Assembly: GCA_002702985.1 (NCBI GenBank)
Contig: PADI01000008.1
Span: 1 to 33,860, forward strand
Source: Methanobacteriota archaeon
GTDB taxonomy: Archaea; Thermoplasmatota; Poseidoniia; Poseidoniales; Thalassarchaeaceae
Length of the DNA stretch: 33,860 nt
Direction of reading: 5' to 3'
Positions 4,098-33,860 of the stretch are shown here, piece after piece (position 1 is the stretch's first letter; every line of letters starts with the position of its first letter). The translations under genes and the position numbers were made by a program. The notes below the pieces were generated by a model that ran no database searches, was not told the DNA's origin, and saw only the letters and a list, made by a program, of their open reading frames with translations.

Positions 4098-4511
4098 ATG
4101 TCTAATCGACTGGGAAGGAAATCAAGGAAATTCCTTCGCCGAGTCCAAAAGTCTCGAACTCTGCAAGAACTCCAATTGATTGCAAATGATATTCAAAGCG
4201 AGGTCGATTCGCGCGGTATAAATTATGAAGAGGCAAATCAATTAGGTAATAGAATTCAAGATAGAGCAGATATCATAGATTCAGATGGTTTGATTTATGC
4301 TATTAGCGATAGAGATACATATCGTCGAACTTTAGAGATTTATCTCAAAGATGGTCTTCTTACTAGGACTGAACAGATGCTTCTTTGGGATGAACGAAGA
4401 AAACTTGGAATTACTGAAGATGAGCATACTCATTTACTTGAGAAATTAGTTTCACTATACAGGAGTCAAGGCCGAACAATTAGGATTCAAAGATCAGGGG
4501 GTAGTTCATAG
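4098..4511 (+). CDS. Small helical protein, first gene of the archaellum-linked module
   Basis: Starting at the ATG at 4098, which has GGAGG at 4086-4090 with a 7-nt spacer, the product is 137 residues. An upstream TTG at 4071 is in frame but has no comparable ribosome site. The protein is basic at the N-terminus and otherwise helical and charged. Residues about 85-130 contain the pattern KDGLLTRTEQMLLWDERRKL followed by GIT and EDEH, a helix-loop-helix arrangement seen in several TerB/SHOCT-like short domains. No signal peptide or membrane helix is visible. It ends with TAG at 4509-4511, sharing one base with the GTG start of the giant surface protein, so it is certainly in the same transcription unit. 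Function unknown. Confidence 0.8.
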   Translation: MSNRLGRKSRKFLRRVQKSRTLQELQLIANDIQSEVDSRGINYEEANQLGNRIQDRADIIDSDGLIYAISDRDTYRRTLEIYLKDGLLTRTEQMLLWDERRKLGITEDEHTHLLEKLVSLYRSQGRTIRIQRSGGSS

Positions 4512-7500
4512 TGAAATTTTTCCATGCAATTACTCTGGTAACTCTTCTACTGATATCTTCCTTAGGTCATTTAGCGATTTCAGAAATTGAAAACTCTCCT
4601 TCACTAACGTCTGGACGTTCTGTAGATGTCTCGGTAGATAGTGTGGAAATAATTTCGGCTTCTGCGGTTATTGGAGGAGTACACACTTTGGCAAATGTGG
4701 CCCATGAAGTCCGAGTTACTATTGTCAATCTTGGAACTACTACTGCCACGGGTACGTTGGAACTGAATGTTGCAGTAAATTCAGGCGTCCCCTCTGTAGT
4801 CGATTCTGTATCATTTACCTTGTTAGGAAGTTCATCAGAAGTACATTTATTCGAATGGACACAAACTTCTGGAACGGCAGATATTTCCGTCACTGCTACT
4901 GCTGGTTCCGATTCAGATCCCTCAAATGATGATCTAGCCTATCCACATACTCTAACAATTCAAGATACCTCTAGTCACGTTGAGGTATCTAATACACTTC
5001 CCAATGATGGAGACGTGATTGGCAGAGATATCTGGCATGGAAATTGGGTTTTCTCAAATACTGGAAATGTTCCCTTTTCCGTTGAGGGCGAATTGGTTCT
5101 AACTCCTTCTGGAGGAGGTTCAGCAATCCCATTGACATCTAGTGTAACAACTGCTCCGCCAGGTTCTCTTTCACAAAACGCTGGAAATTCCGCAGTAAAT
5201 CTTTCTTTTGATGGTTCACCATTATCTGGTACATATACCATGAGTGGATTGTTTAAGATGTCATTTTCTGATGGTTCTACATCGGATATCCCTATCTCCT
5301 CTCGAAATATTGTTTTATCCGATTCACACCACACAGTTACTCCACCTGCAAATATTTCTGTAAATCCGGGTAGTGGAACTGGACTATTGTTTATTGTTCA
5401 AAATCTAGGTTCTTCATCAGATACCTACACTGTTGAATATAGTAATGTTTCAAACTGGGTTGATGATTCTAGTTTGCCTTCCACTATTACCAATTTAGCC
5501 TCCAACACAGGTGCACCGATAAATGTCCCAGTAAATGTTCCGATTACAGCGGATCGTTCTGATATTGAAACAGTTACAGTATACGTGAATAGTACAACTT
5601 CCCCTGCTAGTGTTACTGCCAGGGCCTCAGTTCTTGCAGGGGACCTTTACCAGTCTGATTTACGAAGTAACGGTTCACTGTTGTATATCGACCCGGGTTC
5701 ATTCGTAATTGTCGATTATACGTTGGTAAATACAGGTACTTCTCCGGCTCATTTCTATCTTACTGCAGGTCTTCAAGAAGATCCAGATGGATGGAATGTA
5801 GATATTGATACTACAACCACAGATCTGATGTCTCCTGGAAATTCTAGAGCCATTACCATTACAATTACTGCCCCCACATTAACCTCTCCCTTAGACCCTG
5901 AAGCAAAAATTTCTGCGGGCAACAGGTTACATCTCAGAGTCACCTCTACTCCAGTTGAAGGAGACTCGGCACTCACTGCATCGAACATTAGTGATATTGA
6001 GGTCCGCCCCTCAGTTAGCGTTTCCATGATTCCTGATGTTGAAGAGCTGTTATTCACAACTGATGAATTAGAAGCCGGAAATATGTTCAAAATGTTTGAT
6101 TTAGAAGTCTCATTGTTGAGTAATTTCCCATCTGGAACTATGGGTTCGGCTGTTATCAACATTACCTCACAAGCAACACAGTTTACTTCTGTAGATGGAG
6201 CAACATATGGTGCGCAGGAATCATCTCGATGGAATTCATCAGTCGGGCCAAATTCTACTACTCTAGATCTGGGTCAATCACGTACTTTGGTTACCTCAGT
6301 ACTAGGCCCTACAGAGACTTTGCCAGCGGCAGGCGCCCTGAATTTCACCTTAACTGCCTCCACTTCGTTATCTGGAATGGTTGGAATTACTTCTCCTGAC
6401 ACATCTTCTTCATTCCGTGTAATCATTGAAACAGTAATTGATGGAGAATTAGAAGATAGTCCAATTACTGCTGGTGTTCCAGGCGTAGAGAACGATGCGA
6501 CAATGGTTTTGACAAATAATGGAAATGCTCTATCTGATTATACTCTATCGACTTCAGGTCTTCCTGGATGGGTTGTTAATCTAACGCCTAATGCTGTTAC
6601 TGCATTGGCGCCAGAAGTTGGAACATGGCCAACAGGTATTGATTCTGTTTTTCAGAATGTTGTGGTAACTGCAACTCCTCCTACAGATGCTAGAGCAGAC
6701 ATAGTACACGAAATTGATATTTTATTGTTCGATGGAGAGGGTTCGTTTGTAGATAATGGAACAGCTAGATTTGTTCTTGACGAGGTAATAGGTGCTCTAA
6801 TAGAACCAGATTCATTGGAGATTGAAGTTCCTTCTGAAGGAACTCAAACTGCAAGTTTCATAGTTCGAAATATGGGTAATTCACTCCAATCATATGATAT
6901 TTCAACAGGTAATTTTGTTGGAGGAACTGACTTTACAATCGGAGCGCCAACCACTGTAACTGTAGAACCCGGTGCTAATGCTACACTTTCTGTTGATGTT
7001 ACCGCATTATCGACTGCAAGGGCAGATTCAACTTATTCATTTGAATTAATTTTAGAACACAATGGAACAGAACAGGATCGTTCAACTGTATTGGTTGGTA
7101 TTGAGAAAATACATGATATCAGATTATCTCATGACGCATTATTTGAAGCAATACCTGGAGAAACATTAGAAATTTCAGTAACTATAGAAAATCGAGGAAA
7201 TTTAAGAGAAGTCGGTACATTTAATCTTACAACTCCCGAAGGTTGGGTACAATCATCTGATTTAATTGATATTTCTCCTGGTGAAACTATTTCCGGACTA
7301 ACCGTAAGAGTTACTGTTCCTGCCCTTGAATCCGAAGAAGTTCCAATGGCTGGGCAAGCTTACACTATTCCGATTTTGGTATTCAATACAACAGACAATT
7401 TTACAATAGGGCAATCTAATGTTACGGTTTCTATCAAACCAGTGTTCCAATTGGTTATGTCATCGTCTCCATCTAGGATAGCAACCATTCCTGGACAATC

Positions 7501-9223
7501 AAGAGACGTTTCCTACCTAATGAAAAATGCAGGTAATGATGCAGTAATTCTTGATGTTTCTTGTTCTGTAGATGCCTCTAGTTCAGGCCGCTGGTCAGAA
7601 CCAGTTTGCCCTGCTACACTGGAGTTAAGTGTCGGTCAGGAACGTTGGATTAATCTTTCAATGACACCTACCGATGATCGACATTGGGATAAAGAATCAG
7701 GAACATTATCCTTCGAGTTTGTTCCAAGAGGGGAAGTTGGAGGTAATGCTAGTTGGTCAACACCTCTAGTGATTGAAAGGGTACAAACAGATGATCCAAT
7801 TATTCTTCGAGGCTCTGATGGCCCTCAATATACTTTGAACATAGACTGGATGCATGTTCCAGAATTAAGTCAAACTGGAACGCTTTCTCCATCATCCTAT
7901 TCTCTAAGATATGTTTCTGCTGAGAGAACAGTCAATGAATCCCTATATCCAGATACGTTATGGAGTTTTGCGATTGCTGGAGGCCCCGATCCATTGGTGC
8001 CTAATGATCTCCATTCTCTAGGGTCTGCATCTCCTTATGCTCTAGATTCTTTTGATATTCTTGTAACAATGCCAGATTCCTCATCAATTGCCCCCGGAGA
8101 CGGTTGGGATTTGACCTTTAATCTTGAAAATCTCGATGAAGCCGGAACTAGACCAGGTACTACGTTTGTTGTTAAAATTCGATTAGATTCCTACAGTGAT
8201 CCCAGAATTTCAGATATTAGTTTTAGTGATGGTTCTCTTGTAGAGGGCAGTTCTACTGAATTAGTAGTCAACATATCCAATACCGGTACAGCAATATTGC
8301 CAATGCTAAGTGTAGTTACTGTTTCTTGCACTGGTTCTGTAAATATACTGGATAATTCTCCTAAGGTTATTCCTCCATTGGGAATTCAAGAGTCAACAGA
8401 AGTAAGTTGGACAGTATCTGCTGATGCACTTCCGTGGTATGTTACTCAAGGTGAATTTAATTGCACTTTCAATTTGGTTTTATCTGATTCTGTATACGGT
8501 AATGTTCTGGAAAATGATGAAGAAATTCGTACCTTGTCTGTTGATACTTGGAGTCCTGGATTCCTCATATCTTTGATATCTGGAATTTTAGTTCTAGTTC
8601 TTTCTTTATTCCTTTTCCGAAGAGGATTAGATGATGATGAACGCGCTCTTCATGGTTCAACGTACTTAGCAATGTTAGGATTAGCAGTCCTAGCCCGTTC
8701 TTCGATTATCCCTGAAATTGGTTTGATTTGTATTGCTTTGGCCACTCTTTGGATGTTTGTAGTTTCGTGGTTGGGTGCTGGAGAGATTCAAGCTATCCAT
8801 GATGATCGGCGAAAGGCTTTGATTGGAGAAAGGGCGGCTTTAGCAAATCATGCTGAAGAGATTGAGACTACAAGACGTGAAGTCGGATGGATTCTTCTTG
8901 GAGCACCGATTTTCTTTGTACTAATGATGACAATCGATCCGAGCCTCAAGGTCAATACTGGAGTTTCTAGCATTGGCTCAAGTGTAGGATATATTGTAGT
9001 GCTTGGAACTATTTGTCTAGTTCTTCTTCGATATCTAGACCGATTGTATGGATTATTGCATAACGATTTGGCTGCCTTAGATATTCGAACTGCTAGAATT
9101 AGAGGAATTCTTCAGAGTAGAACTCAGAATCGAGTTAATCCGTTTGCAACTCCTCCTCCTGTGCCCGAAGCATTCAATCCAGATGTAGAATCTCAAGAAA
9201 ATACGGGGGGTGAAGAAGAATGA
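4511..9223 (+). CDS. Giant secreted/membrane protein: beta-sandwich ectodomain, five C-terminal TM helices
   Basis: The 1570-residue product starts with a signal peptide (residues about 1-25, core ITLVTLLLISSLGHLA). About 1300 residues of repeated Ig-like domains of the CARDB/NEW3 kind follow, recognisable from recurring phrases such as VRVTIVNLGT, FIVQNLGSSSDTY, FIVRNMGNSLQSYD and VTIENRGNL, each with P-GW nearby. Two cysteine pairs occur late in the ectodomain. Five hydrophobic segments follow (about 1350-1372, 1380-1396, 1400-1422, 1457-1475, 1490-1508), which leaves charged loops and a 60-residue Pro/Glu-rich tail in the cytoplasm. It overlaps its neighbours by 1 bp and 4 bp. The role is unknown; its place directly before flaB suggests a cell-envelope component linked to the archaellum. 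Confidence 0.9.
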   Translation: MKFFHAITLVTLLLISSLGHLAISEIENSPSLTSGRSVDVSVDSVEIISASAVIGGVHTLANVAHEVRVTIVNLGTTTATGTLELNVAVNSGVPSVVDSVSFTLLGSSSEVHLFEWTQTSGTADISVTATAGSDSDPSNDDLAYPHTLTIQDTSSHVEVSNTLPNDGDVIGRDIWHGNWVFSNTGNVPFSVEGELVLTPSGGGSAIPLTSSVTTAPPGSLSQNAGNSAVNLSFDGSPLSGTYTMSGLFKMSFSDGSTSDIPISSRNIVLSDSHHTVTPPANISVNPGSGTGLLFIVQNLGSSSDTYTVEYSNVSNWVDDSSLPSTITNLASNTGAPINVPVNVPITADRSDIETVTVYVNSTTSPASVTARASVLAGDLYQSDLRSNGSLLYIDPGSFVIVDYTLVNTGTSPAHFYLTAGLQEDPDGWNVDIDTTTTDLMSPGNSRAITITITAPTLTSPLDPEAKISAGNRLHLRVTSTPVEGDSALTASNISDIEVRPSVSVSMIPDVEELLFTTDELEAGNMFKMFDLEVSLLSNFPSGTMGSAVINITSQATQFTSVDGATYGAQESSRWNSSVGPNSTTLDLGQSRTLVTSVLGPTETLPAAGALNFTLTASTSLSGMVGITSPDTSSSFRVIIETVIDGELEDSPITAGVPGVENDATMVLTNNGNALSDYTLSTSGLPGWVVNLTPNAVTALAPEVGTWPTGIDSVFQNVVVTATPPTDARADIVHEIDILLFDGEGSFVDNGTARFVLDEVIGALIEPDSLEIEVPSEGTQTASFIVRNMGNSLQSYDISTGNFVGGTDFTIGAPTTVTVEPGANATLSVDVTALSTARADSTYSFELILEHNGTEQDRSTVLVGIEKIHDIRLSHDALFEAIPGETLEISVTIENRGNLREVGTFNLTTPEGWVQSSDLIDISPGETISGLTVRVTVPALESEEVPMAGQAYTIPILVFNTTDNFTIGQSNVTVSIKPVFQLVMSSSPSRIATIPGQSRDVSYLMKNAGNDAVILDVSCSVDASSSGRWSEPVCPATLELSVGQERWINLSMTPTDDRHWDKESGTLSFEFVPRGEVGGNASWSTPLVIERVQTDDPIILRGSDGPQYTLNIDWMHVPELSQTGTLSPSSYSLRYVSAERTVNESLYPDTLWSFAIAGGPDPLVPNDLHSLGSASPYALDSFDILVTMPDSSSIAPGDGWDLTFNLENLDEAGTRPGTTFVVKIRLDSYSDPRISDISFSDGSLVEGSSTELVVNISNTGTAILPMLSVVTVSCTGSVNILDNSPKVIPPLGIQESTEVSWTVSADALPWYVTQGEFNCTFNLVLSDSVYGNVLENDEEIRTLSVDTWSPGFLISLISGILVLVLSLFLFRRGLDDDERALHGSTYLAMLGLAVLARSSIIPEIGLICIALATLWMFVVSWLGAGEIQAIHDDRRKALIGERAALANHAEEIETTRREVGWILLGAPIFFVLMMTIDPSLKVNTGVSSIGSSVGYIVVLGTICLVLLRYLDRLYGLLHNDLAALDIRTARIRGILQSRTQNRVNPFATPPPVPEAFNPDVESQENTGGEEE

Positions 9224-12031: not shown

Positions 12032-12505
12032 ATGGCAGACGGAGGTGCATCAGATATGATAATGTTAGTTGCCAGTCTCATTGTCGCAGGAATAGTTTCT
12101 GCAGTACTTATTCAAGCATGGGGCGGAGTTTCTTCTGCTCTTGATTCTGGAGCAGATCAAATTGAAGTTAATGAAAAGACTGAGGCTACATTAGTTAGCG
12201 ATCCGATGCATATAACTTGGAATTCTGCGACCAATCAGACAATGATAACAGTTCAAAATATAGGAGATTTAACTTTGAATATTACAGGAACAAATATTCT
12301 TCTTAATGGTTCAATGATGAATGTTACTCAACGTGGAGTAAACCCATCAATTTGGTTACCCGGTTCCATTGTTAATTTCACAGTTCAGGGTAATATACAG
12401 CTATCAACTAATGATGAAGTATCTCTTACAGTGATTGTATTAACAGATAGTTTGAACCCTACTCAAGGAGTGTACTCATTTACAGAGGTGGTACGAATTG
12501 TCTGA
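12032..12505 (+). CDS. flaG: Archaellum protein FlaG
   Basis: This 157-residue protein starts at ATG 12032 behind GGTGA (12023-12027). The first 25 residues (SDMIMLVASLIVAGIVSAVL) form a class III-like, uncleaved membrane helix, followed by QIEVNEKTEATLVSDPMHI and a strand-rich domain with TMITVQNIGDLTLN. This matches the FlaG scheme, in which ATLVSDP resembles the conserved INDP region after the helix. FlaG forms a filament that is capped by FlaF and couples the motor to the envelope. Several N-x-S/T sequons are present in the outer domain, as expected for an extracellular archaeal protein. Confidence 0.88.
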   Translation: MADGGASDMIMLVASLIVAGIVSAVLIQAWGGVSSALDSGADQIEVNEKTEATLVSDPMHITWNSATNQTMITVQNIGDLTLNITGTNILLNGSMMNVTQRGVNPSIWLPGSIVNFTVQGNIQLSTNDEVSLTVIVLTDSLNPTQGVYSFTEVVRIV

Positions 12506-13187
12506 AGACTCATTTCCATTTGGTCTTGAACAAGACAGTTTAGCCAATAGTTTAGGTGCAGCAATTCCCAACCGTTCTCTGATGATCGTTGAAGGAGAAA
12601 TTGGAGGAGGAAAGAGCCTAATCGCACAACGTCTTGCCTTTGGTTTAGTGGAAAATGGTACAAAGGTTGCTCTAGTTACTACTGAATTAACGACTAGGGG
12701 TTGGCTTGAGCAAGTAGCCAGTATTGGTTATGGTATGTCAGAATATATCGATAAAGGCCAATTTTTACTCATGTCTAGATTTGGTGTTTTAACTGAAGAA
12801 GTAGAAGTTGAAATTACGATTGATGATTTAATCTCCAATGAGGGTCTTAAGGCAGCAGACTTTGTTATCATCGATCGTGCATCTCAGTTGATTCCTCCTG
12901 ATACTAATCCTACAGCATTACTCTCTGCTATACGTCAATTTACTGCCGAAGGTCGTACACTCATGTTATGTTTTGATTCAGAAGAAGTTGAACCAGCCCT
13001 TCTTCGTGAGATTAAGGGTTCGGCTGAAGTAGTAATTGGCCTACTTTCAAGTACTCAGGGTGGCCAACTTAATCGTACACTTGCAGTGACTAGATTCCTT
13101 CGAGCTGCTGGTCCAGTACAAGCCAGAATTGGATGGAGAGTAGAACCGAGTATGGGATTCATTGTCGATATTACGGCGGTCAGTTGA
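12498..13187 (+). CDS. flaH: Archaellum motor ATP-binding protein FlaH
   Basis: The 229-residue product begins at TTG 12498, overlapping flaG by 8 bp, with GAGGTGG just upstream. It has a RecA/KaiC-like fold: Walker A GEIGGGKS at 33-40 and Walker B FVIID at 122-126, with TTEL at 61-64 in the place of the catalytic glutamate region. FlaH forms a ring that stacks on FlaI and binds ATP without strong hydrolysis, probably regulating the motor. Length and position before flaI are as usual. Confidence 0.95.
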   Translation: MSEDSFPFGLEQDSLANSLGAAIPNRSLMIVEGEIGGGKSLIAQRLAFGLVENGTKVALVTTELTTRGWLEQVASIGYGMSEYIDKGQFLLMSRFGVLTEEVEVEITIDDLISNEGLKAADFVIIDRASQLIPPDTNPTALLSAIRQFTAEGRTLMLCFDSEEVEPALLREIKGSAEVVIGLLSSTQGGQLNRTLAVTRFLRAAGPVQARIGWRVEPSMGFIVDITAVS

Positions 13188-13197
13188 GGTGTGACCA

Positions 13198-14919
13198 ATG
13201 GAAGAAGCGGAGGATTTTGAAATCGCTAAGGGAGACCTTGAAGGTCTCATGGCGAGATATGATCACGTTCGAAGATGGGTTGAAGATTTTGAGGCACAAC
13301 ATGGTACTCGTCCGTATTTCTATGGCCCATTAGATAGAGGTGCGAAAAGTATCGAACCTCGGAATTTGATATACAGCCTAAAACCGCCTTTGTTTGCCCA
13401 TATATACAAGCCAGAAGATGATGATGAACAGGGTGCAGGTACAACATTATGGTTTGGAATCGAACCAGTCTTGAATGAAGAAGAAGAAGTAATTCGTCAA
13501 GAAATCGTAGACCGGTTATTAAGAGACGCTCCAAGTGCACCTTCATTTACATCTGATTCAGAATTTGAAGGAATTCTTGAAGGAATGATTGAGAGAATGA
13601 CTACTACAAGTCCAAGTGTGATTCAAGCAGATACTGTTCTTGGCCCTGCTATGGGTTTTCTTGGGTTAGGTGAATCTTCTATTTCGGTAAGTCCAGAGCA
13701 ATTAGAACGGCTAAAATATATCATTATTCGAGATTTAGTTAAGTCAGGTCCGTTGGAAGCGTTACTATCTGATGAAATGCTTGAGGATATTCATTCTGTA
13801 GGTCTAAGATACATCAATATGGATCATAAAGTATTCGGGATGGTAACTTCCAATATTCGATTCAGAGATAGAGAAGTACTTGCAAGATATCTTCGTTCCA
13901 TGTCTGAAAGAATAGGAAGACCTGTTTCAGATAGTAAACCAATTATTGACGGTGCGTTATTAGACGGCTCCAGAATAAATATCATTTTCAGTGACGATGT
14001 TTCGATGCTTGGTCCATCTTTCACCATTCGAAAGTTCGCCGAAGAAACAATTTCTGTCATTCAATTAATCAAATGGGGGACTATGTCTGCTCAACAAGCA
14101 GCATACATCTGGTTGGGTCTTGAGAATGGTATGTCTCTCCTCGTTTCAGGGGAAACTGCTTCAGGAAAAACCACTACATTAAATGCAATTTTACCATTTA
14201 TCGATCATAATGTTAAGATATATTCTGCTGAAGATACTCCTGAAGTAAAGGTTCGACATAGACTTTGGCAGAGACTAGTTACTCGTGATTCTAAGAATGA
14301 AGACTCTAGAGTAGAAATGTTCGATCTTTTGAAAGCAGCATTAAGATCTAGACCGAGATACATCATTATCGGGGAAATTCGTGGTGTTGAAGGAGCCACT
14401 GCTTTCCAAGCAATGCAGACTGGACATCCGGTTATTGCAACTTTCCACGCATCTTCAATAGTCAAAATGATTCAGAGATTCACAGGAGATCCGATCAATG
14501 TTCCTGCTCGATTTTTTGATAATCTTAATTTCGCTATTTTCCAAGAGGTCGTTGAAGCTCCAGGTGGAGGAATTGCCAGACGGATTACCGGAATAGATGA
14601 GGTGATAGGTTACAATAAATTTGCAGATGGAATTCTCACTCGAGGAATGTTTGAGTGGGATCCTGTAATTGACAAGCATTACTTCAGAGGAATGTTTCAA
14701 TCACATTTAATGGAAAATAAGATGGCTCCTATGATGGGATTTGCAAATAAACGTGAAATTTACAATGAAATGGAACGAAGAACAGAAGCGATTCAACGAA
14801 TGGCCGATCGTGATTTGACTCATTATGACGACGTCTTCGACATTTTAGATATTTATTATCAACAAGGATGGGAACAGTTTTCCTCCGCAATAGACACCTG
14901 GGTAGGGGTGAACCATTAG
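13198..14919 (+). CDS. flaI: Archaellum motor/assembly ATPase FlaI
   Basis: This 573-residue protein is a type II/IV secretion ATPase. Walker A GETASGKT is at 318-325. The Walker B region RPRYIIIGEIRG is at 385-396, with catalytic E393, and the His box GHPVIATFHAS follows about 20 residues later. The N-terminal domain (1-290) includes the long FlaI-type region with LVKSGPLEALL and the DGSRINII segment at the N-terminal domain/ATPase junction. FlaI powers both filament assembly and rotation as a hexamer below FlaJ. It starts at ATG 13198 behind GAGGTG, 10 bp after flaH. Confidence 0.97.
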   Translation: MEEAEDFEIAKGDLEGLMARYDHVRRWVEDFEAQHGTRPYFYGPLDRGAKSIEPRNLIYSLKPPLFAHIYKPEDDDEQGAGTTLWFGIEPVLNEEEEVIRQEIVDRLLRDAPSAPSFTSDSEFEGILEGMIERMTTTSPSVIQADTVLGPAMGFLGLGESSISVSPEQLERLKYIIIRDLVKSGPLEALLSDEMLEDIHSVGLRYINMDHKVFGMVTSNIRFRDREVLARYLRSMSERIGRPVSDSKPIIDGALLDGSRINIIFSDDVSMLGPSFTIRKFAEETISVIQLIKWGTMSAQQAAYIWLGLENGMSLLVSGETASGKTTTLNAILPFIDHNVKIYSAEDTPEVKVRHRLWQRLVTRDSKNEDSRVEMFDLLKAALRSRPRYIIIGEIRGVEGATAFQAMQTGHPVIATFHASSIVKMIQRFTGDPINVPARFFDNLNFAIFQEVVEAPGGGIARRITGIDEVIGYNKFADGILTRGMFEWDPVIDKHYFRGMFQSHLMENKMAPMMGFANKREIYNEMERRTEAIQRMADRDLTHYDDVFDILDIYYQQGWEQFSSAIDTWVGVNH

Positions 14920-14940
14920 TAGGTTTTAGAGGGCGTACAT

Positions 14941-16734
14941 ATGGAACGTCTCCCCTTATGGCAAATTGCAATTCGTCGTCTTGGAATGCCTATCCAAGAA
15001 TATGCACTAAAAGTAGTTCTTCCACTTACTGTATTTGGATTAGTTTTAGGTGCAATTGTTTCCTACGTAGCCTCCGGATTATTTACTGGAGCCTCTGGAT
15101 TAATTCTAGGTTTTATTTTCCCGATACTATCGGGAGGAGTAGCCGCAATATGGCCTATCATCCAGACCCAACGTCTTGCTATTGCAATTGAACGTGAAAT
15201 GCACATGTTCATCACACGAATGGGAATTCTTTCTCTCGGTGATGCAGGAGCTCAATCTATGTTTGATATTCTTAAACAAATGGGGGATTATGGGGCTTTA
15301 GCAGAGGAAGTACAATCGATAGAAACCCTTGTTGATAGGTGGCATACAAATTTACCAGAAGCAGCAAGAATTGTCGGTAGACAAAGTCCTTCTCCGATTT
15401 GGGGTGATTTCTTAGATCGGATGGCTTTTTCAGTAGAAGCAGGTCAACCTTTAGAGGATTTTATGCGTTCTGAACAGGATACTTTCCAAGAGGAATTCAA
15501 TACATTATATGATACAAGATTGGAGGCTGTGGATACACTGCGTGAAATTTACATCTCATTAACGACTACTGGTATGTTTTTGTTGGTTGTTTCTGGAATT
15601 CATCTTGTTCTATTTATGACTGGAACCTTGGACGACGACCCATGGACAGTATTGGTTAGAATTCGTTGGATCCTGTTATCTGCATTAATTTATACTCTCC
15701 TCCAATTATTTGGGCTTATTTCGTTCATGGTACTAATCCCAGATGATGATTTATTCTCTCGAAATGATATGGCTACTAAATATAAAATCAAAATGCGTAG
15801 GGCTTGGGTGGTTGCTAGTGTAGTAGGAATGAGTATCATTTTGTTTACGTTATTTTCTAGTATTCTCGTAGACTTTACTTTCATCCTTGAGAATTGGGAT
15901 CAATATGGTCTTTTAGCAATCGCTGTAATTGTAACGCCATTCGCTGTTCCTGCATATTTAGTTGGACAAGAAGAACGTTCTGTAAGACGTCGAGATGAAT
16001 CATATCCTGGTTTTATACGAGCACTTGGAGGCACTGCTCAGGCTCGTTCTTCTGAGCCAAGTGCTACAGTACGTGCGTTGAAAGGTATTGATTTTGGAGC
16101 ATTGAACGCCTCTATTGATCAATTAGAGCGCAGACTTTCAATGAGAATTGATAGCGATCATTCCTGGGATTGGTTTGCAGCAGATGCGAATTCAATGATG
16201 GTATCTCGATTCATTCGAATTTATCTTGAGGGGGCCCAATCTAGTGGCGAACCAGCAGGGGTAGCTGAATTGGTCTCAAAAAATACTACTAATCTTCTTT
16301 CCCTTAGGAGGCGTAGAGCACTTTCATCTGGTACAATGCAAGGTGTAGCTTTTGGTGTTCTGATTGCTATGATTACTAGTTTAAACATTACAATATCAAT
16401 TGTCCAAGGGCTCGGTTCATCGATTAGTGGAGTTGCTCAGGGATTGGTTGAAACAGATGTCGGAGGTATTCCAGAATTAGCAGGGGGTTTTGGTCTCCCG
16501 GTTTTAGATGACAGTACCGTTGTAGAAGAAAACATCTTCCTTTTCAAAATAATTGTTTCAGTATTGGTTCTAATGATGATCATGATTCTAGGTCTAATTT
16601 CTGCCAGAATTAGAGGAGGCGGAATTGCTCTATCCATCGGCCAAATGATCACAATGTTATGGGTAGCTGGATTTACTAGCTTCTTGACAGCAGTAATTTT
16701 GGATGCTTCAATAGGGTTGTTCATCACTGGATAG
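14941..16734 (+). CDS. flaJ: Archaellum membrane platform protein FlaJ
   Basis: The product has 597 residues and two T2SSF-type cytoplasmic segments (about 60-210 and 345-470) between groups of membrane helices. Hydrophobic stretches occur at about 32-75, 200-225, 240-265, 285-310, 320-340, 465-490, 535-560 and 570-595. The cytoplasmic part begins EREMHMFITRMGILSLGDAG, the F-domain pattern with a short leader. It is the multipass base to which FlaI binds. It starts 21 bp after flaI and is the last fla gene; no prepilin peptidase gene is nearby, so the archaellin peptidase must be encoded elsewhere. Confidence 0.95.
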   Translation: MERLPLWQIAIRRLGMPIQEYALKVVLPLTVFGLVLGAIVSYVASGLFTGASGLILGFIFPILSGGVAAIWPIIQTQRLAIAIEREMHMFITRMGILSLGDAGAQSMFDILKQMGDYGALAEEVQSIETLVDRWHTNLPEAARIVGRQSPSPIWGDFLDRMAFSVEAGQPLEDFMRSEQDTFQEEFNTLYDTRLEAVDTLREIYISLTTTGMFLLVVSGIHLVLFMTGTLDDDPWTVLVRIRWILLSALIYTLLQLFGLISFMVLIPDDDLFSRNDMATKYKIKMRRAWVVASVVGMSIILFTLFSSILVDFTFILENWDQYGLLAIAVIVTPFAVPAYLVGQEERSVRRRDESYPGFIRALGGTAQARSSEPSATVRALKGIDFGALNASIDQLERRLSMRIDSDHSWDWFAADANSMMVSRFIRIYLEGAQSSGEPAGVAELVSKNTTNLLSLRRRRALSSGTMQGVAFGVLIAMITSLNITISIVQGLGSSISGVAQGLVETDVGGIPELAGGFGLPVLDDSTVVEENIFLFKIIVSVLVLMMIMILGLISARIRGGGIALSIGQMITMLWVAGFTSFLTAVILDASIGLFITG

Positions 16735-17874: not shown

Positions 17875-20800
17875 ATGGACAAAATAAGTAAGACACTATT
17901 GCTCACATTTCTGTTTGTACTAGGAACACTAAGTAGTTCTATCTTGAGTCAGAATGAGTCATTCAACACGACCTCTGAATCATATGAATCTGGACCGCGG
18001 AATATGAGTCCTCCAACTCTAGAATATTTGTCTCCTGCAAGTAATTCTACTTACAATGCAGGGGATGTGATTAACATTACTATCGAATTAAACGACACTG
18101 ATGGCGATGATATTGCATATGCATATGTAGCCGTTCAATCAGGAACTTGGTCGAACAATGTTTGGGGTTCAAATGGGAATATCACCACTGCAACAAACTC
18201 TACTATCATTACATTCTCGTGGAATACTTGGGGGTATAATGCAGGAACTTACTATTTTAATTCAAATTTGACTTGGACTAATGGAACAGATTGGTCAACT
18301 TGGTATTCTGGTGTTGATTATTGGAACAATTATTCGATTAATCTGGTAAATTCAAACAACTCAGGGGGTGGAGGGAATTCAGGAAACACAGGATGTGGCT
18401 ATGACGTAAGTTTTGCAACAGTTCAATCAACCGGCATTGGCCATACAATGAATGGTGGAACCGGAGACCTAAGCCCGAATCAGAATGTTACAATTTTCAT
18501 GACGGTCAATTGTGCTGTTTACAATAGTACTATGTCGTTAGTATACTGGATTTATGATTCAAACAACAGTACATGGGAGATAGGAAATCATAGTTGGTAT
18601 CATCAGTCATCAAGCACCACGTTTTCTCATCATTGGAACACAACAGCTCCTTCTACGAACGGCAATTACAATTTCATTGTTGAATTATTCATCAATGGTT
18701 CGATTGAGGCATGGGATAATGATCCATTCACGGTCGGTTCGAATAATTCTGGAGATAACGGCAATACTGGATGCACTCCAGAAGTCGTAATCAACAGTTA
18801 CAATCCGACAAACCCTAACGGCTTTGAAAATCAGACAACGTTCAATTCGAATGAGCCCATAACGCTCTATGCATATCATCACTGCTTTCCCACAGGTAGT
18901 TATCATTGGAACTCAACTGTTTACGGACCTAGTGGAATGTATGAGGATAACTATGGAAACCTGAATTTTACCAACAGCAGCAGCAACAGCTGGTTGACAA
19001 ATGTCTGGGAATATAACGTCGGTTATCTCGGTCCTGGGGAATATACTTGGTATTATGGATTCACAAATTGGGGGGGCATCTCCAGATATGTCTCACATAA
19101 CTTCACAATAGTCAACAGTACCTCTTCAAACAACAATAGTGGAGGATCTCAAGGCTGCTCACCAGAAGTGCTACTCGAAACTTATAGTTCGGTGAATACT
19201 TTCAATAGCGCTCAGACGATCTTCGAGTATGGAGTTCATGACATTATCTTTGAAGCAACCCACATTTGTATGCCTGCTGATGAATTTCATTGGAACTCTA
19301 CCATATACGGTCCCTCAGGAATGGTTGATTCTACGGTTTATGGTTCTGAAAACCTAACCAATGGCGGCAATCTGCATTCGACCGTCCACACCTTTGATTC
19401 CACTACTTTGCCTTCTGGAGAATATACCTGGTATTATGGATTTTCAAATTGGTGGGATATCTCTAGATACGTCTCACATAACTTCACAGTTATCGATAAC
19501 GGGACTGCTTCGAATGTTACAGGATCATGTTCTTTCCCTTCTTTTGAGGCAACACCATATGCTTTGTATGCTGGAGAGGATTTAACTTACAATTGGACCA
19601 TGACTGGAGATATCAGTTCCCATGTTTACTTATCTCTTCATAGTGGATGGGGGACACAGTACTATTACTCTGGAATCGTAGTGAATGATGGGAGTCATAC
19701 CATCACTCTGCCATCTCAAATGAACCCAAATCTAGACTACACAGTATATGTTGAAAGTGCTTTCCAGGATGCTAGAACAACACTATGTTGGAAATATGGT
19801 GCAATCGACATTCTAGGTTCCAACGAAGGGCCCTTGGGTAACGAAACAAACATATCCCCAACTGTTGATTTAACACCTCGAATCTCGATGTGGTATGGAA
19901 AGGTGAATCAGCACAATGAAAATGGTACTTGGATGACGGATCCTGATGGTGTTGCTGGCGCTGGTTCATATGATGATTGGGGAGACGAAGGTTGGGGAGA
20001 TCGCAAGCTTGAGTACTGCCAACGTTTCTGGCCAGATACTGTCGATGTTGTACTCCGCGACTCTCCTGAAGAGATTATATTCTACACTCGATACAATTCA
20101 GAAGCCTACCTCTCCACTAAACCGGTTTGGGAATGTATCCTTGAAGGCGCTCAAATCACTGAATTAACAGGTGTATGTTCATTTGATCTGACAATAACTC
20201 CAACTGAACTAGAAGTAGGAGATACTTTGACAGTGACTTGGACAATGACTGGAGACATTCCTGTTGAGGTTGGGATTGCGTTCTTCAGTACTGTGCAAGG
20301 ACAGTGGAATGTAGGTGTCCAATATCACTTGAGTGAGATTACTGCGAATGATGGTGGATTTGCTTATTCTATCCCTCAAGGTATGAATCCAGACCGAGAT
20401 TACTACATGTATATCGATGCCGAGTTAACGGATGATTTCACAACTTATTGTTGGAAGTATGGCTCTTTTGACATTCTTGCTAGTAATGAGGGTGCTTTGG
20501 AAGAAGTATTGGAAAATCTCTTCAATTCGACTGACCGCACTCCACGGATTTCAATGTGGTATGGTAAGGTAAACCAACATAACGAAAATGGAACTTGGAT
20601 GACCGATCCTGATGGAACTGCCGGGGCAGGTAATTTCAACCAATTCGGAAGTGATGGTTGGGGGGATCGCAAGCTCGAATATTGTCAGCGTTTCTGGCCT
20701 GACACCGTATCTGTCGCCCCTATGGGTGCAGAACAGATTGTATTCTATACAGGAGGGAATCAGGTTGCGTATCTTACTACAAAACCAGTTTGGCAGTGCG

Positions 20801-21090
20801 TACAAGATACGGATGGTGATGGAATCCTAGATCCAGATGATGCAGATGATGACAACGACGGTTGGAGCGATATTCTAGAACAGGCGTGTGGCACCAACGA
20901 ATTGGATGTCAATGATGTTCCCGCAGATTCGGATGGAGACCAAATTTGTGATCTTCTGGATGATGCATTGGACGAGGTAGTCACAGATGCTACAGAGGAA
21001 GATGCAGGATTCTTACCTGGATTCAGTGCGATTAGTGGCCTTGCAGCACTTGGTGCTGCGATGTTGATCGGGCGTCGTCGTTCAAATTGA
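17875..21090 (+). CDS. Repetitive surface protein with calcium-binding region and PGF-CTERM-like anchor
   Basis: The 1071-residue product has a signal peptide (1-25). Next comes an Asn/Ser/Thr/Trp-rich beta domain (about 40-160), then three related units of about 120 residues beginning GCGYDV, GCTPEV and GCSPEV (about 172, 299, 427). The last two end with near-identical EYTWYYGF and ISRYVSHNFT. Two longer units of about 210 residues follow (about 550-760 and 767-975), each carrying RISMWYGKVNQHNENGTWM and WGDRKLEYCQRFWPDT. Residues about 978-1035 are Asp-rich DxDxDG thrombospondin type 3-like repeats that should bind calcium. The end (FLPGFSAISGLAALGAAMLI then GRRRSN) matches the archaeosortase PGF-CTERM signal: PGF, a hydrophobic helix, basic tail. 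It is probably an envelope-attached adhesin or coat protein. Confidence 0.92.
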   Translation: MDKISKTLLLTFLFVLGTLSSSILSQNESFNTTSESYESGPRNMSPPTLEYLSPASNSTYNAGDVINITIELNDTDGDDIAYAYVAVQSGTWSNNVWGSNGNITTATNSTIITFSWNTWGYNAGTYYFNSNLTWTNGTDWSTWYSGVDYWNNYSINLVNSNNSGGGGNSGNTGCGYDVSFATVQSTGIGHTMNGGTGDLSPNQNVTIFMTVNCAVYNSTMSLVYWIYDSNNSTWEIGNHSWYHQSSSTTFSHHWNTTAPSTNGNYNFIVELFINGSIEAWDNDPFTVGSNNSGDNGNTGCTPEVVINSYNPTNPNGFENQTTFNSNEPITLYAYHHCFPTGSYHWNSTVYGPSGMYEDNYGNLNFTNSSSNSWLTNVWEYNVGYLGPGEYTWYYGFTNWGGISRYVSHNFTIVNSTSSNNNSGGSQGCSPEVLLETYSSVNTFNSAQTIFEYGVHDIIFEATHICMPADEFHWNSTIYGPSGMVDSTVYGSENLTNGGNLHSTVHTFDSTTLPSGEYTWYYGFSNWWDISRYVSHNFTVIDNGTASNVTGSCSFPSFEATPYALYAGEDLTYNWTMTGDISSHVYLSLHSGWGTQYYYSGIVVNDGSHTITLPSQMNPNLDYTVYVESAFQDARTTLCWKYGAIDILGSNEGPLGNETNISPTVDLTPRISMWYGKVNQHNENGTWMTDPDGVAGAGSYDDWGDEGWGDRKLEYCQRFWPDTVDVVLRDSPEEIIFYTRYNSEAYLSTKPVWECILEGAQITELTGVCSFDLTITPTELEVGDTLTVTWTMTGDIPVEVGIAFFSTVQGQWNVGVQYHLSEITANDGGFAYSIPQGMNPDRDYYMYIDAELTDDFTTYCWKYGSFDILASNEGALEEVLENLFNSTDRTPRISMWYGKVNQHNENGTWMTDPDGTAGAGNFNQFGSDGWGDRKLEYCQRFWPDTVSVAPMGAEQIVFYTGGNQVAYLTTKPVWQCVQDTDGDGILDPDDADDDNDGWSDILEQACGTNELDVNDVPADSDGDQICDLLDDALDEVVTDATEEDAGFLPGFSAISGLAALGAAMLIGRRRSN
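19522..20790 (+). repeat. Tandem duplication of a 210-residue domain inside the surface protein
   Basis: Two copies (about 19522-20152 and 20170-20790) encode the same order of motifs: CSFxxxxTPxxLxxGxxLT, WTMTGDI, a CWKYGxxDIL segment, a variable spacer, RISMWYGKVNQHNENGTWM, AGAG, WGDRKLEYCQRFWPDT, then TKPVW-CV/I. The C-terminal half is nearly invariant in protein while many codons differ, so the copies are old but under strong selection. Confidence 0.85.
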
Positions 21091-28762: not shown

Positions 28763-29635
28763 TTATTCACTTTCAATAGTCAATCCGTTTTCATCAAATC
28801 CCCATTCAATTATTGACCAACCAGCACTCTCGCATGATTGTTTTACTAAATCTTGGGTACTAGGTCTTACTAGGAGCATTGCACAACCTCCTCCCCCAGC
28901 ACCTACTGCTTTCCATGCCATGACATGCTTTGCTTCAATGAGTGGTTCAATAACCGGTTTGAATGGAGCATGAATTTTTTCATCAATCAAATCAACTCCT
29001 TCACATACCTGCTTCAACGATTCTACAACAGAATCCCTTCTATCTCTGTTTAGTCCATCAGCCATTTTCTTTGCCGCAGTTCTTAGCATAAGTAATCCTT
29101 CTTCAACTTTAGAATCACCTTTCTTGAATTTCTCCCAAACTTCTTGATGCATTTCTCCAGAAACATGTTCAATACCGCTATCTACCAAAATTAGATGTTT
29201 ACTTAACCAGTTTTTAGAACTTTGAAGAGGCTCTAAGGGTAATCTTTCTACCCGTTCTCCAATGAATAGTAAATGGTTGAATCCTCCGAGTGCTGCTGCC
29301 CATTGATCTTGTCTTCCTCCTGTGTTTCCTAACTGCATTTCAAATTGATATGCATTTTCTGCAATCTCTAGAGGGTCTGATTTTCCTCCATCAATCGCAG
29401 CTAAGAGTGCTACATTAACCGCACCTGTAGTTCCTAAGCCAGCTCCTAATCTTGTATTACTGCGATATGTGGCAGTAAGCATACCATTTTCTGTAGTCCC
29501 TACGTCTGCTTGAGCATAGATATTGATTGCAAAATTTACAACCTCGCCCCCATATTTTTCTGCAAAAATTGGAACATCTGTCCAGCCACCAGCCAAGTCA
29601 ATTCGAGTAGGAGCAGTAGCCCTTGTAGTTCTCAT
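28763..29635 (-). CDS. GHMP-family sugar kinase (heptose-7-phosphate/fucose kinase-like)
   Basis: The 290-residue product has the three GHMP motifs. TRIDLAGGWTDVP at 10-22 is the substrate-binding start characteristic of the HddA/fucokinase branch. The ATP-binding loop is GAGLGTTGAVN (64-74). Motif 3 GAGGGGCAMLL lies near residue 260. TGGRQDQWAAALGGFN (105-120) is also typical of D-glycero-D-manno-heptose 7-phosphate kinases. It phosphorylates a sugar or sugar phosphate, probably for nucleotide-sugar synthesis; the exact sugar cannot be told. It overlaps the NERD-S1 gene by 4 bp and is therefore in the same operon. Confidence 0.88.
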   Translation of the reverse strand: MRTTRATAPTRIDLAGGWTDVPIFAEKYGGEVVNFAINIYAQADVGTTENGMLTATYRSNTRLGAGLGTTGAVNVALLAAIDGGKSDPLEIAENAYQFEMQLGNTGGRQDQWAAALGGFNHLLFIGERVERLPLEPLQSSKNWLSKHLILVDSGIEHVSGEMHQEVWEKFKKGDSKVEEGLLMLRTAAKKMADGLNRDRRDSVVESLKQVCEGVDLIDEKIHAPFKPVIEPLIEAKHVMAWKAVGAGGGGCAMLLVRPSTQDLVKQSCESAGWSIIEWGFDENGLTIESE

Positions 29636-30864
29636 TTATCTCCCTCTGGAAAATCTAATGCGATTCGATTTCTTTGATGATCTACCTTTGTGACCATGAC
29701 CCTCACAGATTGTCCTCTTGGATACAGGACTTTGAGGTTGTCGAGACCAAGATTGGGCATCATACTCATTGGAACAAGGCCATTCATATTCGGTTGTAAT
29801 TCAATGAATAAGCCGTATGTGTCATGCCATCCATCTACAGTTCCTCTTATGATATCACCTTTTGAATATGGAATTCCTTCTAATCGAAGTTTATCTCTTG
29901 GGTCATCATCGGTTTTTCTGCCATAATCTACTCTTACAATGTCTATCATAGAAAGCCCTCCTTCTATGACTCCAATTCCAGGTTGAATCCAAGGAAGAAG
30001 GGCATCTTCATGGATATTTGATTTGATAATTTCATTATTATGTAAATGGATTATAATCGACAATGTTGGGTTCTTCCACAAAGTTTTGAACCATCCACAA
30101 TTTTGTTTTATTGTAAAATAGTTGACTTTTGTTCTATCAAGAATATCAATTCCTTCAATTAACAATTCTTTTCTTTCTTCAGGGATTTGCCCCCAACGAA
30201 TTAATCCATTCTCATTTTTCCCTTTATGTTGAACTGTATCCCAAGTTCCAAATTCTAATAATTTGTTAATAATGTGTTTGCGCATATTGCTTTTCATTCG
30301 TTCTTCGCCATCAAAAAGAGATTTTATTGCTGTTGCTTCTTTCATTTTTAGGATACTATGTTTTCCCTTTTTATTCGATAAAAAAGAACTACTTTTGTGT
30401 GTCAAAATAATTGCTGCTTTAATAGGTGGAGAATCTTCTCCTACATCATTTTCAATTATACTTGGACGTAGAATACGACTTATTTGATTAATTCGATCAT
30501 CTAAACGACTGAATGGATAGTCTACTTTGCCCTTAACTTGCTTCATTCCTTCTTCTGAAACTTCGATTTTACCTTTCCAATGTTTTACTTCTATCAATAC
30601 AATTCCTTTAGGTGAAATTGCTACGATATCAATTTCAAATCTTCCTTTAGGTCTATTTGGATCTGGTATTAAAACTCCCGAGAAAAATTTCCATCCCTGT
30701 GGACCTAATTTTAACTCTAAATTTTTCCTTGCTATTTCTTCTCCTTGTAGCCCTGCTTCCTCACTATAGTTTCTTTCTTGATGTGCCTCCAACATTTTTT
30801 TGCGGAGTTTGAATCTAGAACGAATAGTAGTCATAGTTAACCATTGATGAATCCGACAGTACAT
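29632..30864 (-). CDS. NERD nuclease-related domain fused to S1 RNA-binding domain
   Basis: The 410-residue protein has a NERD domain at about 35-175. GLQGEEIARKNL, then RFEIDIVAISPKGIVLIEVK and HWKG give the PD-(D/E)xK core with Asp79, Glu92 and Lys94. A middle region (about 180-330) is not recognised. The C-terminus (about 332-405) is an S1/OB fold: GTVDGWHDTYGLFIELQPN, NGLVPMSMM, VRVMVTKVDHQRNRIALDF. A predicted restriction-endonuclease-type catalytic domain is thus joined to an RNA-binding domain. An alternative start is Met11 (30834). It is 12 bp downstream of the GH38-like gene and overlaps the sugar kinase by 4 bp. Confidence 0.85.
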   Translation of the reverse strand: MYCRIHQWLTMTTIRSRFKLRKKMLEAHQERNYSEEAGLQGEEIARKNLELKLGPQGWKFFSGVLIPDPNRPKGRFEIDIVAISPKGIVLIEVKHWKGKIEVSEEGMKQVKGKVDYPFSRLDDRINQISRILRPSIIENDVGEDSPPIKAAIILTHKSSSFLSNKKGKHSILKMKEATAIKSLFDGEERMKSNMRKHIINKLLEFGTWDTVQHKGKNENGLIRWGQIPEERKELLIEGIDILDRTKVNYFTIKQNCGWFKTLWKNPTLSIIIHLHNNEIIKSNIHEDALLPWIQPGIGVIEGGLSMIDIVRVDYGRKTDDDPRDKLRLEGIPYSKGDIIRGTVDGWHDTYGLFIELQPNMNGLVPMSMMPNLGLDNLKVLYPRGQSVRVMVTKVDHQRNRIALDFPEGDK

Positions 30865-30876
30865 AGTTCAGAAGTA

Positions 30877-33860
30877 TCAAGAAAGTCGCCATTGAACAAT
30901 TGAACCTGATTTAACTTCAGCATCCCAGCCGCCATTTTTCAAGTCTAATTTCTTTTTTCTCGCATTTTCTAACATGCTACACTCATGCACTCGTTCCAAG
31001 TCGAGATCGGAATGAATTCTTCCTTTCCAATCTGTATTAGTTGGATTGTACACGCGCAAAATAATTCCTCCAAGATCTTCAGAAGGTTTGAACGCTGATA
31101 GGACTGGAGTAGGGCCTTCTCCATCAAATCGAATATGTTCTAAACTTCGACCCAGAGTTCCAGGAGTCAGAGATTCTTCAAAGAAACCATTCGCTAGAGG
31201 TTTTCGAGTAGCGACTAATAAATTAGCAGATGTAGCAAAACATTCAGCTGCATGATGGATATTTTCAGATTGCCAATCCTCATCGAATGGAAGTACAGAC
31301 CATCTGGTAATTGATGTTCCAATACATTGGGACCCCGGGGCAGGAAGTACTGCATCCGCATTCGAGGGTCTATGAGAAAATCCACTCTGAGATGTCCAAC
31401 CTATTGAACGTACCAAAGTTAGAGCGATATCATGGCCTCCAGGATCCGCATCATCTGCCAATATAATTTCATATTCATTGACGCCTGGAGAAAGAAGTGC
31501 TAACCCTCCATCGTTCAATCCATCTTCCGTTCCAATTACTGCCAAGAATCGTTCCATTGGTTGTGTAGGAACCAATGGTTGAACCCAACTTGGGTCATGA
31601 GGATGTAAAACTGGTCTTCGAACAACATCGAAAGGAGTACCTGCATTTGCACTAGTCAGGTGCATTCCAGTAGGGATAATCAATCTCATTCGGTGATCTT
31701 CAGCTTTATTGTCTACCCATGTTTCTACTTCTATATTTCTTGCTCCTAGTCTTAGGGTAACGAAATGATCTACCGTGACAGGGGCTAACTCTACACTTCT
31801 CGTTTGGTTCGCGGTATCCAAATATGCAGGGATATTCCAAACTACTCTGAGATGAACAGTTGCAGACCATTCATCTGAATGTTGTAAATTGGTTGTAGTT
31901 TGAATTCTTGTAATATCTGAATCATGCAATCTACGATCCATTGGCTGTGTTCGCAAGTCCATTGGACCATCAGATTTACCAGGATGGCCAGCAGGACTGT
32001 AGTCATAGGAATCTCCTGCATCTTCAACATCTTCAAGCCGCCCAATGCCTGGAAATCGTCTACCAGTGGAACGATCGACCAAATCAAATCTTCCATCAGG
32101 AAGAAATTCTACACGAATTTCTCCATTATCAATAGCAGAAATTCTTCCTTCTCCTTGTTCAACCTCAACTGGTTTACTGGGAAGAGTAGATGGAGAAGCA
32201 TGGCCAGGAACAGCATGTAAGACATGAATTCCCGGTGGTAATCGATGAATCTGTACTCTACCCCTAATTCGAGGCAATTCCAACTCAACGTGAGAGTCTC
32301 TGTGAAGATGTGTATCAATTTCTGGAGATACTTGGATTAAATCGCTGATTATGGTGGAATTGTTTGGAGGTTTGGAGAATTCAAGATGTACGGGGTTGCC
32401 TGCATCCAACCAACATCGGTATGCAGGGGCCACAATGTCTACTGGTAACATTCCGCTCCATTCTGTTCCTAGAGGATTATGCAATAACATCGGAATAGCG
32501 TCACGATCAATGTGATGAAGGTTCATTTCATCTGCCAGTTCGATTCGAACATCTTCTATCACCATGGCTGCAGTTTCCTGAGCATGTCTGAATGAATCTT
32601 CCATATCCATATGCACCTCATCAGGAGACACACCTCCAATCTCATGGAATCCATGGTTTTGTAGAACTAAATCCCAAGCATTTTGAATTCTATCCCATCG
32701 ATTTCTTCCTTTATGGAACCAACTTAATGCCGCTAAAGGTTCAGTAGATTGGGTTATAGTGCGAATAGTGTGGTCATTCATCCTTTTCAAATAAATTCTG
32801 GATGATAATGACCCGGTATGTAGCATTCTATCCCATCCATGTCGCATTTCTCCATCATACGAGTATAGTTTCTTTCTTCCTACCCATGAACGAACATCCT
32901 TTCCGAATTTTGAGAAACTAGAATGAGAAAAAGTCACTTCGCCTTTCATAGCTTTGTTCGCATCGGCGATTAGACTTGGAAGAGACGGTTGTGCCATTCC
33001 GTGTCTGGTTCCATTCCCAAATAGCATCATGGGAGGGAGCCATCCGTATTTTTCTAGATGAAGATTAGATAACGTTTCAATTCTATTGGATGCAGTTTCA
33101 GAATCTATATCCATACTATTTTTTGAATCAGTTTGCCTTTTCTCAAATCCCCAACCCCCCAATGAATCACCACTAGGGATTTGTTTAATCGCTAGTATAG
33201 AAGAATCACCATCTGATGATGACCATTTGAATACACCACGAGCATCTTGAATCCATGGTCCGGCTCCTCCATTGAAAATTAATTCATCAGAACCAATTTC
33301 AGATAGAAGAGCGGGTAATTGGCTAACGTGAGATGTACTTCTAGGCATTACAGTACTTCCAATACTTCCTCCAAGGGATTTAGTCGCAGCAACGCCCCTT
33401 TGCAAGTTACGAACCAAGGCTTCTCCACCTACCAAAAATTGAGAAGGTGGATTATACCATGGACCAATATTCAACCTACCTTCGGAAACTAAAGATTTGA
33501 CTCGTTCTCGATTTTCAGGTCTTAGAATGAGGTATTCCTCCAATATCAAAGTTTGACCATCCAAGTCGAATGAAGGAAATGTTTCTTCATTTGATTCTAG
33601 AAGAACAAGTAAATCATCAAACATATCTAGAAGTAGATGACGGTTAGATGCAATAGATCTAACTGCTGTCCTAGGCCAAAGTGCAAATGGAACAATATGT
33701 CCAGAACGTTCAGTATCAGGTAAATCATCGTACACGGAACCTGCTGGTGCCAGAACTTCTCTAGGCTGTATGGATACATCAGGTGGTGCTTCATCTGGTT
33801 CGCTTTCTGAAAGGGGGACTCTATTCGGTAACGGATCCAATGATTCTACTTTGATTTCCA
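30877..33860 (-). CDS. GH38 alpha-mannosidase homologue lacking catalytic residues (5' end outside window)
   Basis: The frame stays open to base 33860 (six more codons past the TTG at 33838-33840), so the true start is probably off the window; at least 993 residues are encoded. Scaffold motifs of GH38 are clear: DMFDDLLVLLE, FDLDGQTLILEEYLILRPEN, GRLNIGPWYNPPSQFLVGGE, LVRNLQRG, SHVSQLPALL and SPDEVHMDME. Numbered from that TTG, the zinc/nucleophile sites differ. PHSHWDRE reads PFALWPRT (51-58). PD-x-FGH reads PRSTSH (166-171). NH-x-HDSICG reads NHGFHEIGG (395-403). The middle and C-terminal beta domains of the family are present. It should bind a glycan or be regulatory rather than hydrolyse mannosides. 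It heads the operon with NERD-S1 and the sugar kinase. Confidence 0.88.
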   Translation of the reverse strand, partial: EIKVESLDPLPNRVPLSESEPDEAPPDVSIQPREVLAPAGSVYDDLPDTERSGHIVPFALWPRTAVRSIASNRHLLLDMFDDLLVLLESNEETFPSFDLDGQTLILEEYLILRPENRERVKSLVSEGRLNIGPWYNPPSQFLVGGEALVRNLQRGVAATKSLGGSIGSTVMPRSTSHVSQLPALLSEIGSDELIFNGGAGPWIQDARGVFKWSSSDGDSSILAIKQIPSGDSLGGWGFEKRQTDSKNSMDIDSETASNRIETLSNLHLEKYGWLPPMMLFGNGTRHGMAQPSLPSLIADANKAMKGEVTFSHSSFSKFGKDVRSWVGRKKLYSYDGEMRHGWDRMLHTGSLSSRIYLKRMNDHTIRTITQSTEPLAALSWFHKGRNRWDRIQNAWDLVLQNHGFHEIGGVSPDEVHMDMEDSFRHAQETAAMVIEDVRIELADEMNLHHIDRDAIPMLLHNPLGTEWSGMLPVDIVAPAYRCWLDAGNPVHLEFSKPPNNSTIISDLIQVSPEIDTHLHRDSHVELELPRIRGRVQIHRLPPGIHVLHAVPGHASPSTLPSKPVEVEQGEGRISAIDNGEIRVEFLPDGRFDLVDRSTGRRFPGIGRLEDVEDAGDSYDYSPAGHPGKSDGPMDLRTQPMDRRLHDSDITRIQTTTNLQHSDEWSATVHLRVVWNIPAYLDTANQTRSVELAPVTVDHFVTLRLGARNIEVETWVDNKAEDHRMRLIIPTGMHLTSANAGTPFDVVRRPVLHPHDPSWVQPLVPTQPMERFLAVIGTEDGLNDGGLALLSPGVNEYEIILADDADPGGHDIALTLVRSIGWTSQSGFSHRPSNADAVLPAPGSQCIGTSITRWSVLPFDEDWQSENIHHAAECFATSANLLVATRKPLANGFFEESLTPGTLGRSLEHIRFDGEGPTPVLSAFKPSEDLGGIILRVYNPTNTDWKGRIHSDLDLERVHECSMLENARKKKLDLKNGGWDAEVKSGSIVQWRLS

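Follow-up and report, generated by a model that had tools for sequence, protein, structure and literature searches.

The nearest known counterparts of the protein studied here include two bacterial GH38 alpha-mannosidases, SpGH38 (PDB 2wyh/2wyi) and the GH38 of E. faecalis (3lvt/5kbp). In SpGH38, the zinc ligands are H13, D15, D125 (also the nucleophile) and H351, D232 is the acid/base, and W18, F127, R149, Y192, D352 and Y574 make further contacts (PMC2815779). In marine archaea, a possible mannosylglycerate glycoside hydrolase was reported in basal MGIIb (MGIIb.9/.10) by Tully et al. 2019 (PMC6336850), and the transcripts of deep-sea MG-II include GH38 (PMC4660358); the passages of these two papers that concern these genes do not describe any inactive form. 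Pseudoenzymes are usually thought to come from duplicated genes (PMC6549527). Among glycosidases, the GH28 pseudoenzymes of beetles (PMC6549527) and heparanase-2 (PMC12406646) kept their fold, lost catalysis and were retained by selection, but both accompany active paralogues after duplication.

The protein reported here is encoded at one end of the window (the whole stretch of DNA analyzed, contig G000:C54, 33,860 bases), which comes from a genus of Ca. Thalassarchaeaceae (Marine Group IIb). It has the same fold as SpGH38 and the E. faecalis GH38 over ~890 residues, with the same motif spacing, but the zinc ligands, nucleophile and acid/base that these enzymes keep are all replaced. The curated GH38 model that matches it best is the MngB-type mannosylglycerate hydrolase (PRK09819), from which it differs by the loss of the catalytic residues and by the lack of kinase/dehydrogenase neighbours in its genus. 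Active Poseidoniales GH38 orthologues (genera g2, g8, g9, g19, g21 and g22; 41-47% identity) likewise have a GHMP kinase adjacent or one gene off where the locus is complete, and those of Thalassarchaeaceae share its GPP/acidic N-terminal tail; unlike it, they have an intact catalytic site, a catabolic operon and a catalytic domain under excess constraint. In contrast to the beetle proteins and heparanase-2, it is the sole GH38 copy detected that appears to have been converted here, in archaea. Pseudo-glycosidases are known as a kind, and our literature search found no paper on a GH38 pseudoenzyme; an archaeal one converted as a single copy appears not to have been known previously.

Structure of the gene and loss of the active site

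The features discussed below are as follows (residue numbers are those of the window ORF).

28763-29635, minus strand: GHMP sugar kinase (HddA/fucokinase-like) with intact motifs, downstream of GH38 and common to active and pseudoenzyme loci
29632-30864, minus strand: NERD-S1 protein gene between pseudoenzyme and kinase (Pfam and locus comparison), found in the majority of species of the genus but missing from some
30877-33858, minus strand: GH38-fold pseudoenzyme ORF, 993 codons within the window including the stop codon, 5′ end past the contig end
30934-31104, minus strand: Glyco_hydro38C2 domain (Pfam, above cut-off)
31399-32133, minus strand: Glyco_hydro_38C domain (Pfam, above cut-off)
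32551-32823, minus strand: Alpha-mann_mid domain (Pfam, 29.9 bits, just under the cut-off of 31.1)
32875-33555, minus strand: Glyco_hydro_38N domain (Pfam, above cut-off)
32644-32649, minus strand: F404-H405 instead of H351-D352, the fourth zinc ligand and a substrate contact (alignment)
33001-33015, minus strand: NGTRH instead of NGSDH, residues 282-286 (acid/base D232 to R285)
33169-33171, minus strand: G230 instead of Y192 (alignment)
33268-33270, minus strand: G197 instead of R149, which supports the nucleophile (alignment)
33328-33345, minus strand: PRSTSH instead of PDPFGH, residues 172-177 (nucleophile and zinc ligand D125 to R173, F127 to T175)
33661-33687, minus strand: FALWPRTAV instead of HTHWDRAWY, residues 58-66 (zinc ligands H13 to L60 and D15 to P62, W18 to A65)

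The GH38 frame (33858-30877) is open over its 993 codons with zero internal stops, as the first-pass annotation of this DNA had noted (neither stop nor frameshift in nearly 3 kb). The GH38N, middle, 38C and 38C2 domains follow each other in this order, and the nearest solved chains are bacterial GH38 alpha-mannosidases (PDB 2wyh, E 5e-57). The top NCBIfam match, mannosylglycerate hydrolase (PRK09819, E 3e-90), scores 303 bits against an equivalog cut-off of 1138, a score far too low for the ORF to belong to the MngB equivalog. An AlphaFold model of the ORF, predicted from 31 sequences (pLDDT 86, pTM 0.89), superposes on 5kbp and 2wyi with TM scores of 0.79-0.81 (normalized by query length). 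Domains, PDB match and superposition thus agree with the earlier view that the GH38 scaffold is retained and, judging from the model, the ORF encodes a full-length GH38 protein apart from its missing N-terminal end.

The contig terminates inside the gene, whose true N-terminus lies outside the window. The end of contig G000:C5 from the same genome encodes a low-complexity start (MSPGPSKGPPRGPP...) that halts in an acidic repeat, and very probably carries the missing N-terminus. The orthologues from Thalassarchaeaceae have 100-300 additional N-terminal residues of GPPxGPP and acidic low complexity. Since these orthologues extend further N-terminally and the C5 end encodes such a start, the listed TTG start (33840) is very probably not genuine. 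This tail (for example L033:5059-6100, L056:12180-13031 and G000:C5:41868-42100) is found on active and inactive GH38 of Thalassarchaeaceae alike and is absent from the sister family; repeats of the GPPxGPP type also occur at other places in genomes of the window genus. No hydrophobic leader was seen, and the protein is therefore probably cytosolic.

The residues defined in SpGH38 (PMC2815779) were transferred to the ORF through alignment, the motifs aligning without gap across the compared sequences. The four zinc ligands His, Asp, Asp and His are replaced by L60, P62, R173 and F404, and the Asp nucleophile and Asp acid/base by R173 and R285. Besides these four ligands (nucleophile among them) and the acid/base, six further active-site residues are lost, and the only ones kept are Y574 (Y618) and W14 (W61). 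The first reading had listed the changes in the zinc site, the nucleophile and the fourth ligand; these four positions are indeed replaced, but the list was an undercount, D232, D352, W18, F127, R149, Y192 and H11 (now F58) being replaced too. Over the 12 pocket positions defined by SpGH38, two replacements of Asp by Arg plus the loss of D15 and D352 shift the net charge from about -3 (plus Zn2+) to about +2. There are strong grounds, on sequence, to consider that the protein would be unable to hydrolyse mannosides through the GH38 mechanism. Its catalytic residues being lost and its fold kept, it is predicted to be a pseudoenzyme devoid of both zinc and hydrolytic activity.

Distribution and origin of the loss

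The losses are shared by all sequences of the window genus (n = 10, from nine species, 71-97% identity to the window protein). Among them, the position of Y574 varies and all other zinc, catalytic and contact residues of SpGH38 are absent from 10/10 (one residue being unread, X, in one row of the alignment). By contrast, every zinc, catalytic and contact residue of SpGH38 is kept in 31/31 Poseidoniales orthologues sampled from the order's other genera and families, as well as in 4/4 bacterial GH38 proteins. The check proposed with the first reading, whether the four positions are always changed in orthologues, therefore gives a positive answer within the genus and a negative one in other genera. 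Orthologues with intact motifs had been named as possible counter-evidence; they do exist, but only in other genera, where they show the ancestral active state and are no refutation of inactivation in the window genus. The active proteins share 82 invariant positions; the genus retains invariance at 55 of them, and at 20 all of its sequences carry a replacement. These replacements affect 11/13 active-site positions compared to 9/69 other invariant ones (Fisher p = 7e-7), so that their clustering at the active site is not due to chance.

In the GH38 tree, the sequences of the window genus group as a single clade (100/100) that falls within the active genera (80/54 and 91/93); support for this position inside the active family is only moderate at the two deepest nodes. 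The loss had a single origin, on the stem of the genus. This stem reaches 1.17 changes per site compared to 0.29 for g8 and 0.15 for g9. Since the stem of the adjacent kinase in the same genus is 0.56 (disregarding rows L057 and L058, paralogues drawn in by clustering) and the within-genus rates of kinase and GH38 are alike, GH38 was accelerated about twofold and on the genus stem only. The genomes of the genus yielded neither a second GH38 nor a hidden active paralogue. These MAGs are 67-90% complete, and it is unlikely that a second active GH38 was missed in all ten of them; one (G018, 67% complete) gave no GH38 match at all. Conversion thus appears to have occurred without a surviving duplicate. 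In one MAG the pseudoenzyme locus occurs twice in nearly identical form, on two contigs (G019:C24 and G019:C25; L031 and L032), probably from two strains binned together. The gene tree follows the genera and no further GH38 of the same profile was found elsewhere in the class; a horizontal origin is not indicated.

Selection on the protein

Within the genus, pairwise dN/dS ranges from 0.027 to 0.058 for pairs with estimable dS. Pairwise dS between its two subclades is saturated and omega at this depth therefore rests on the codon ML model, which gives 0.032 for the genus compared to 0.039 and 0.026 in two active genera. The gene is thus under purifying selection across species (omega 0.03), and the frame is open in all 10 sequences, as expected from the initial proposal that this is not simple decay. 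The ratio of divergence between the catalytic plus middle domains and the beta domains is 0.99 [0.79-1.26] in the genus, whereas all comparisons of active proteins give 0.37-0.65. Constraint thus extends over the entire protein and is no stronger in the former catalytic domain than elsewhere. This domain has lost the extra conservation seen in active lineages, which provides independent evidence that selection no longer acts on catalysis. Overall, the GH38 protein is very likely a single-copy pseudoenzyme maintained by selection.

Genomic neighbourhood

Active loci successively carry an Azf-like epimerase/dehydrogenase, a kinase plus mannitol-1-phosphate-dehydrogenase-type protein, GH38, usually a DUF2817 protein, and a GHMP kinase. 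The Azf-like dehydrogenase, the kinase/mannitol-1-phosphate-dehydrogenase-type fusion and DUF2817 are gone from the locus of the window genus. The kinase/mannitol-1-phosphate-dehydrogenase-type gene, in particular, is found in 27/29 genomes from g2, g8 and g9, the active genera of the family, compared to 0/10 of the window genus. The locus of the genus retains GH38 and the GHMP kinase, with the NERD-S1 gene between them in most species. As some species of the genus lack this gene, it is probably an insertion; its product in the window fuses a NERD nuclease-related domain to an S1 RNA-binding domain.

It had also been suggested that the protein acts with its operon partners. For the GHMP kinase, which is intact, this is not supported: full-strength orthologues (about 45-57% identity) are present in six genera of the family that lack GH38 (g4-g7, g10 and g11), and the kinase occurs in nearly all genera of the family. 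A profile search of the loci of these GH38-less genera found no diverged GH38 concealed beside the kinase, which sits there by an S8-MFS fusion and a DHBP synthase. Since the kinase is widespread without GH38, its presence is no evidence of partnership, and it is unlikely to be an obligate partner of the pseudoenzyme.

The mannitol-1-phosphate-dehydrogenase-type protein (L058:4757-6805 and orthologues) has a long N-terminal part with a weak sugar-kinase match and is divided into two genes in g2 and g19. A large gene of the CD36 family (Pfam E 1.6e-20), otherwise a family of eukaryotic scavenger receptors, adjoins active GH38 genes in some sister-family genera (L045:10119-12767, minus strand; also L048, L051 and L052). 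The fusion found by the GHMP kinase in GH38-less genera joins a subtilase (S8) to an MFS transporter (L064:9585-13409, L067:2717-6532 and L068:8646-12389), and an M28 peptidase-MFS fusion lies near GH38 at L045:110-3013.

Possible roles of the pseudoenzyme

The first-pass annotation proposed a non-hydrolytic role, and this is the best reading given the genus-wide loss of catalytic residues and an omega of about 0.03. A single-copy cytosolic GH38 alpha-mannosidase would have been changed in place into a pseudoenzyme on the stem of one Thalassarchaeaceae genus, with replacement of its zinc site, nucleophile, acid/base and sugar-stacking residues, while the associated catabolic genes were dropped from the locus. 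The multi-domain fold, under strong purifying selection, and the disordered GPP-rich/acidic N-terminal tail would have been kept. The folded surface may then act as a scaffold or interaction platform, the remodelled net-positive pocket being at most a secondary ligand site. We favour this scaffold role over a lectin-like pocket because the protein is evenly constrained and its pocket shows no special conservation within the genus, but we consider it to have somewhat less than an even chance of being correct.

Rather unlikely is the broader alternative that the active site was rebuilt without duplication into a new functional site, either a net-positive pocket that accepts a ligand bearing phosphate or sulfate groups or a site of new chemistry, making the protein a sensor, a regulator or a different enzyme. 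Its first form, in which the emptied site binds a sugar, perhaps anionic or phosphorylated, and the protein is an allosteric regulator of another protein, is unlikely too. Lectins derived from glycosidases exist in other GH families, and the reversal of the pocket charge with a gain of arginines would suit an anionic ligand. However, conservation of the pocket within the genus (7/12 positions) is not above that of the rest of the protein (596/946, 63%), the stacking residues W18 and F127 and the sugar contacts are lost, and positions 404, 405, 175 and 618 vary. An enzyme that performs new chemistry, whether in the old pocket or in a different one, seems improbable: a burst on the stem followed by strong constraint would also be expected of it and the genus has gained invariant His and Arg residues (H74, R67, R339 and H347), but the old site shows no obvious newly conserved acid pair or metal triad and the extra conservation of the catalytic domain has disappeared.

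A mannosidase still active through unconventional residues is scarcely credible, as nothing but the preserved fold speaks for it, while none of the zinc ligands, the nucleophile or the acid/base remains and two aspartates are now Arg. The disappearance of the catabolic neighbours could evoke a pseudogene early in decay after loss of the pathway, an explanation already refuted by the 10 open frames, the 55/82 family-invariant positions still invariant and an omega far under 1 across deep within-genus divergence. Finally, although these are MAG data and the contig terminates within the gene, an assembly, binning or alignment artefact is refuted by the recurrence of the same residues, in motifs aligned without gap, in independent assemblies from several studies.

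The favoured reading, a pseudoenzyme under selection, therefore combines in-place conversion of the sole GH38 copy found, active orthologues of sister genera as a natural control and co-occurring loss of the pathway. It appears that an enzyme has taken on another job with no duplication of its gene, and the genus offers a clean system to study the role of a large glycosidase fold once hydrolysis is removed. It should also be emphasized that counts of GH38 in Marine Group II metagenomes and metatranscriptomes do not always imply mannoside degradation.

Other genes of the window

Two very large ORFs lie in the window, one of 1570 aa with matches to Ig-like domains (4511-9223) and one of 1071 aa without Pfam match (17875-21090). 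Between them, genes for a KaiC-like ATPase, T2SSE and T2SSF proteins stand in series (12498-16734), the make-up of an archaellum (FlaH/I/J) cluster; such genes have been reported for only some MGIIb subclades (PMC6336850).
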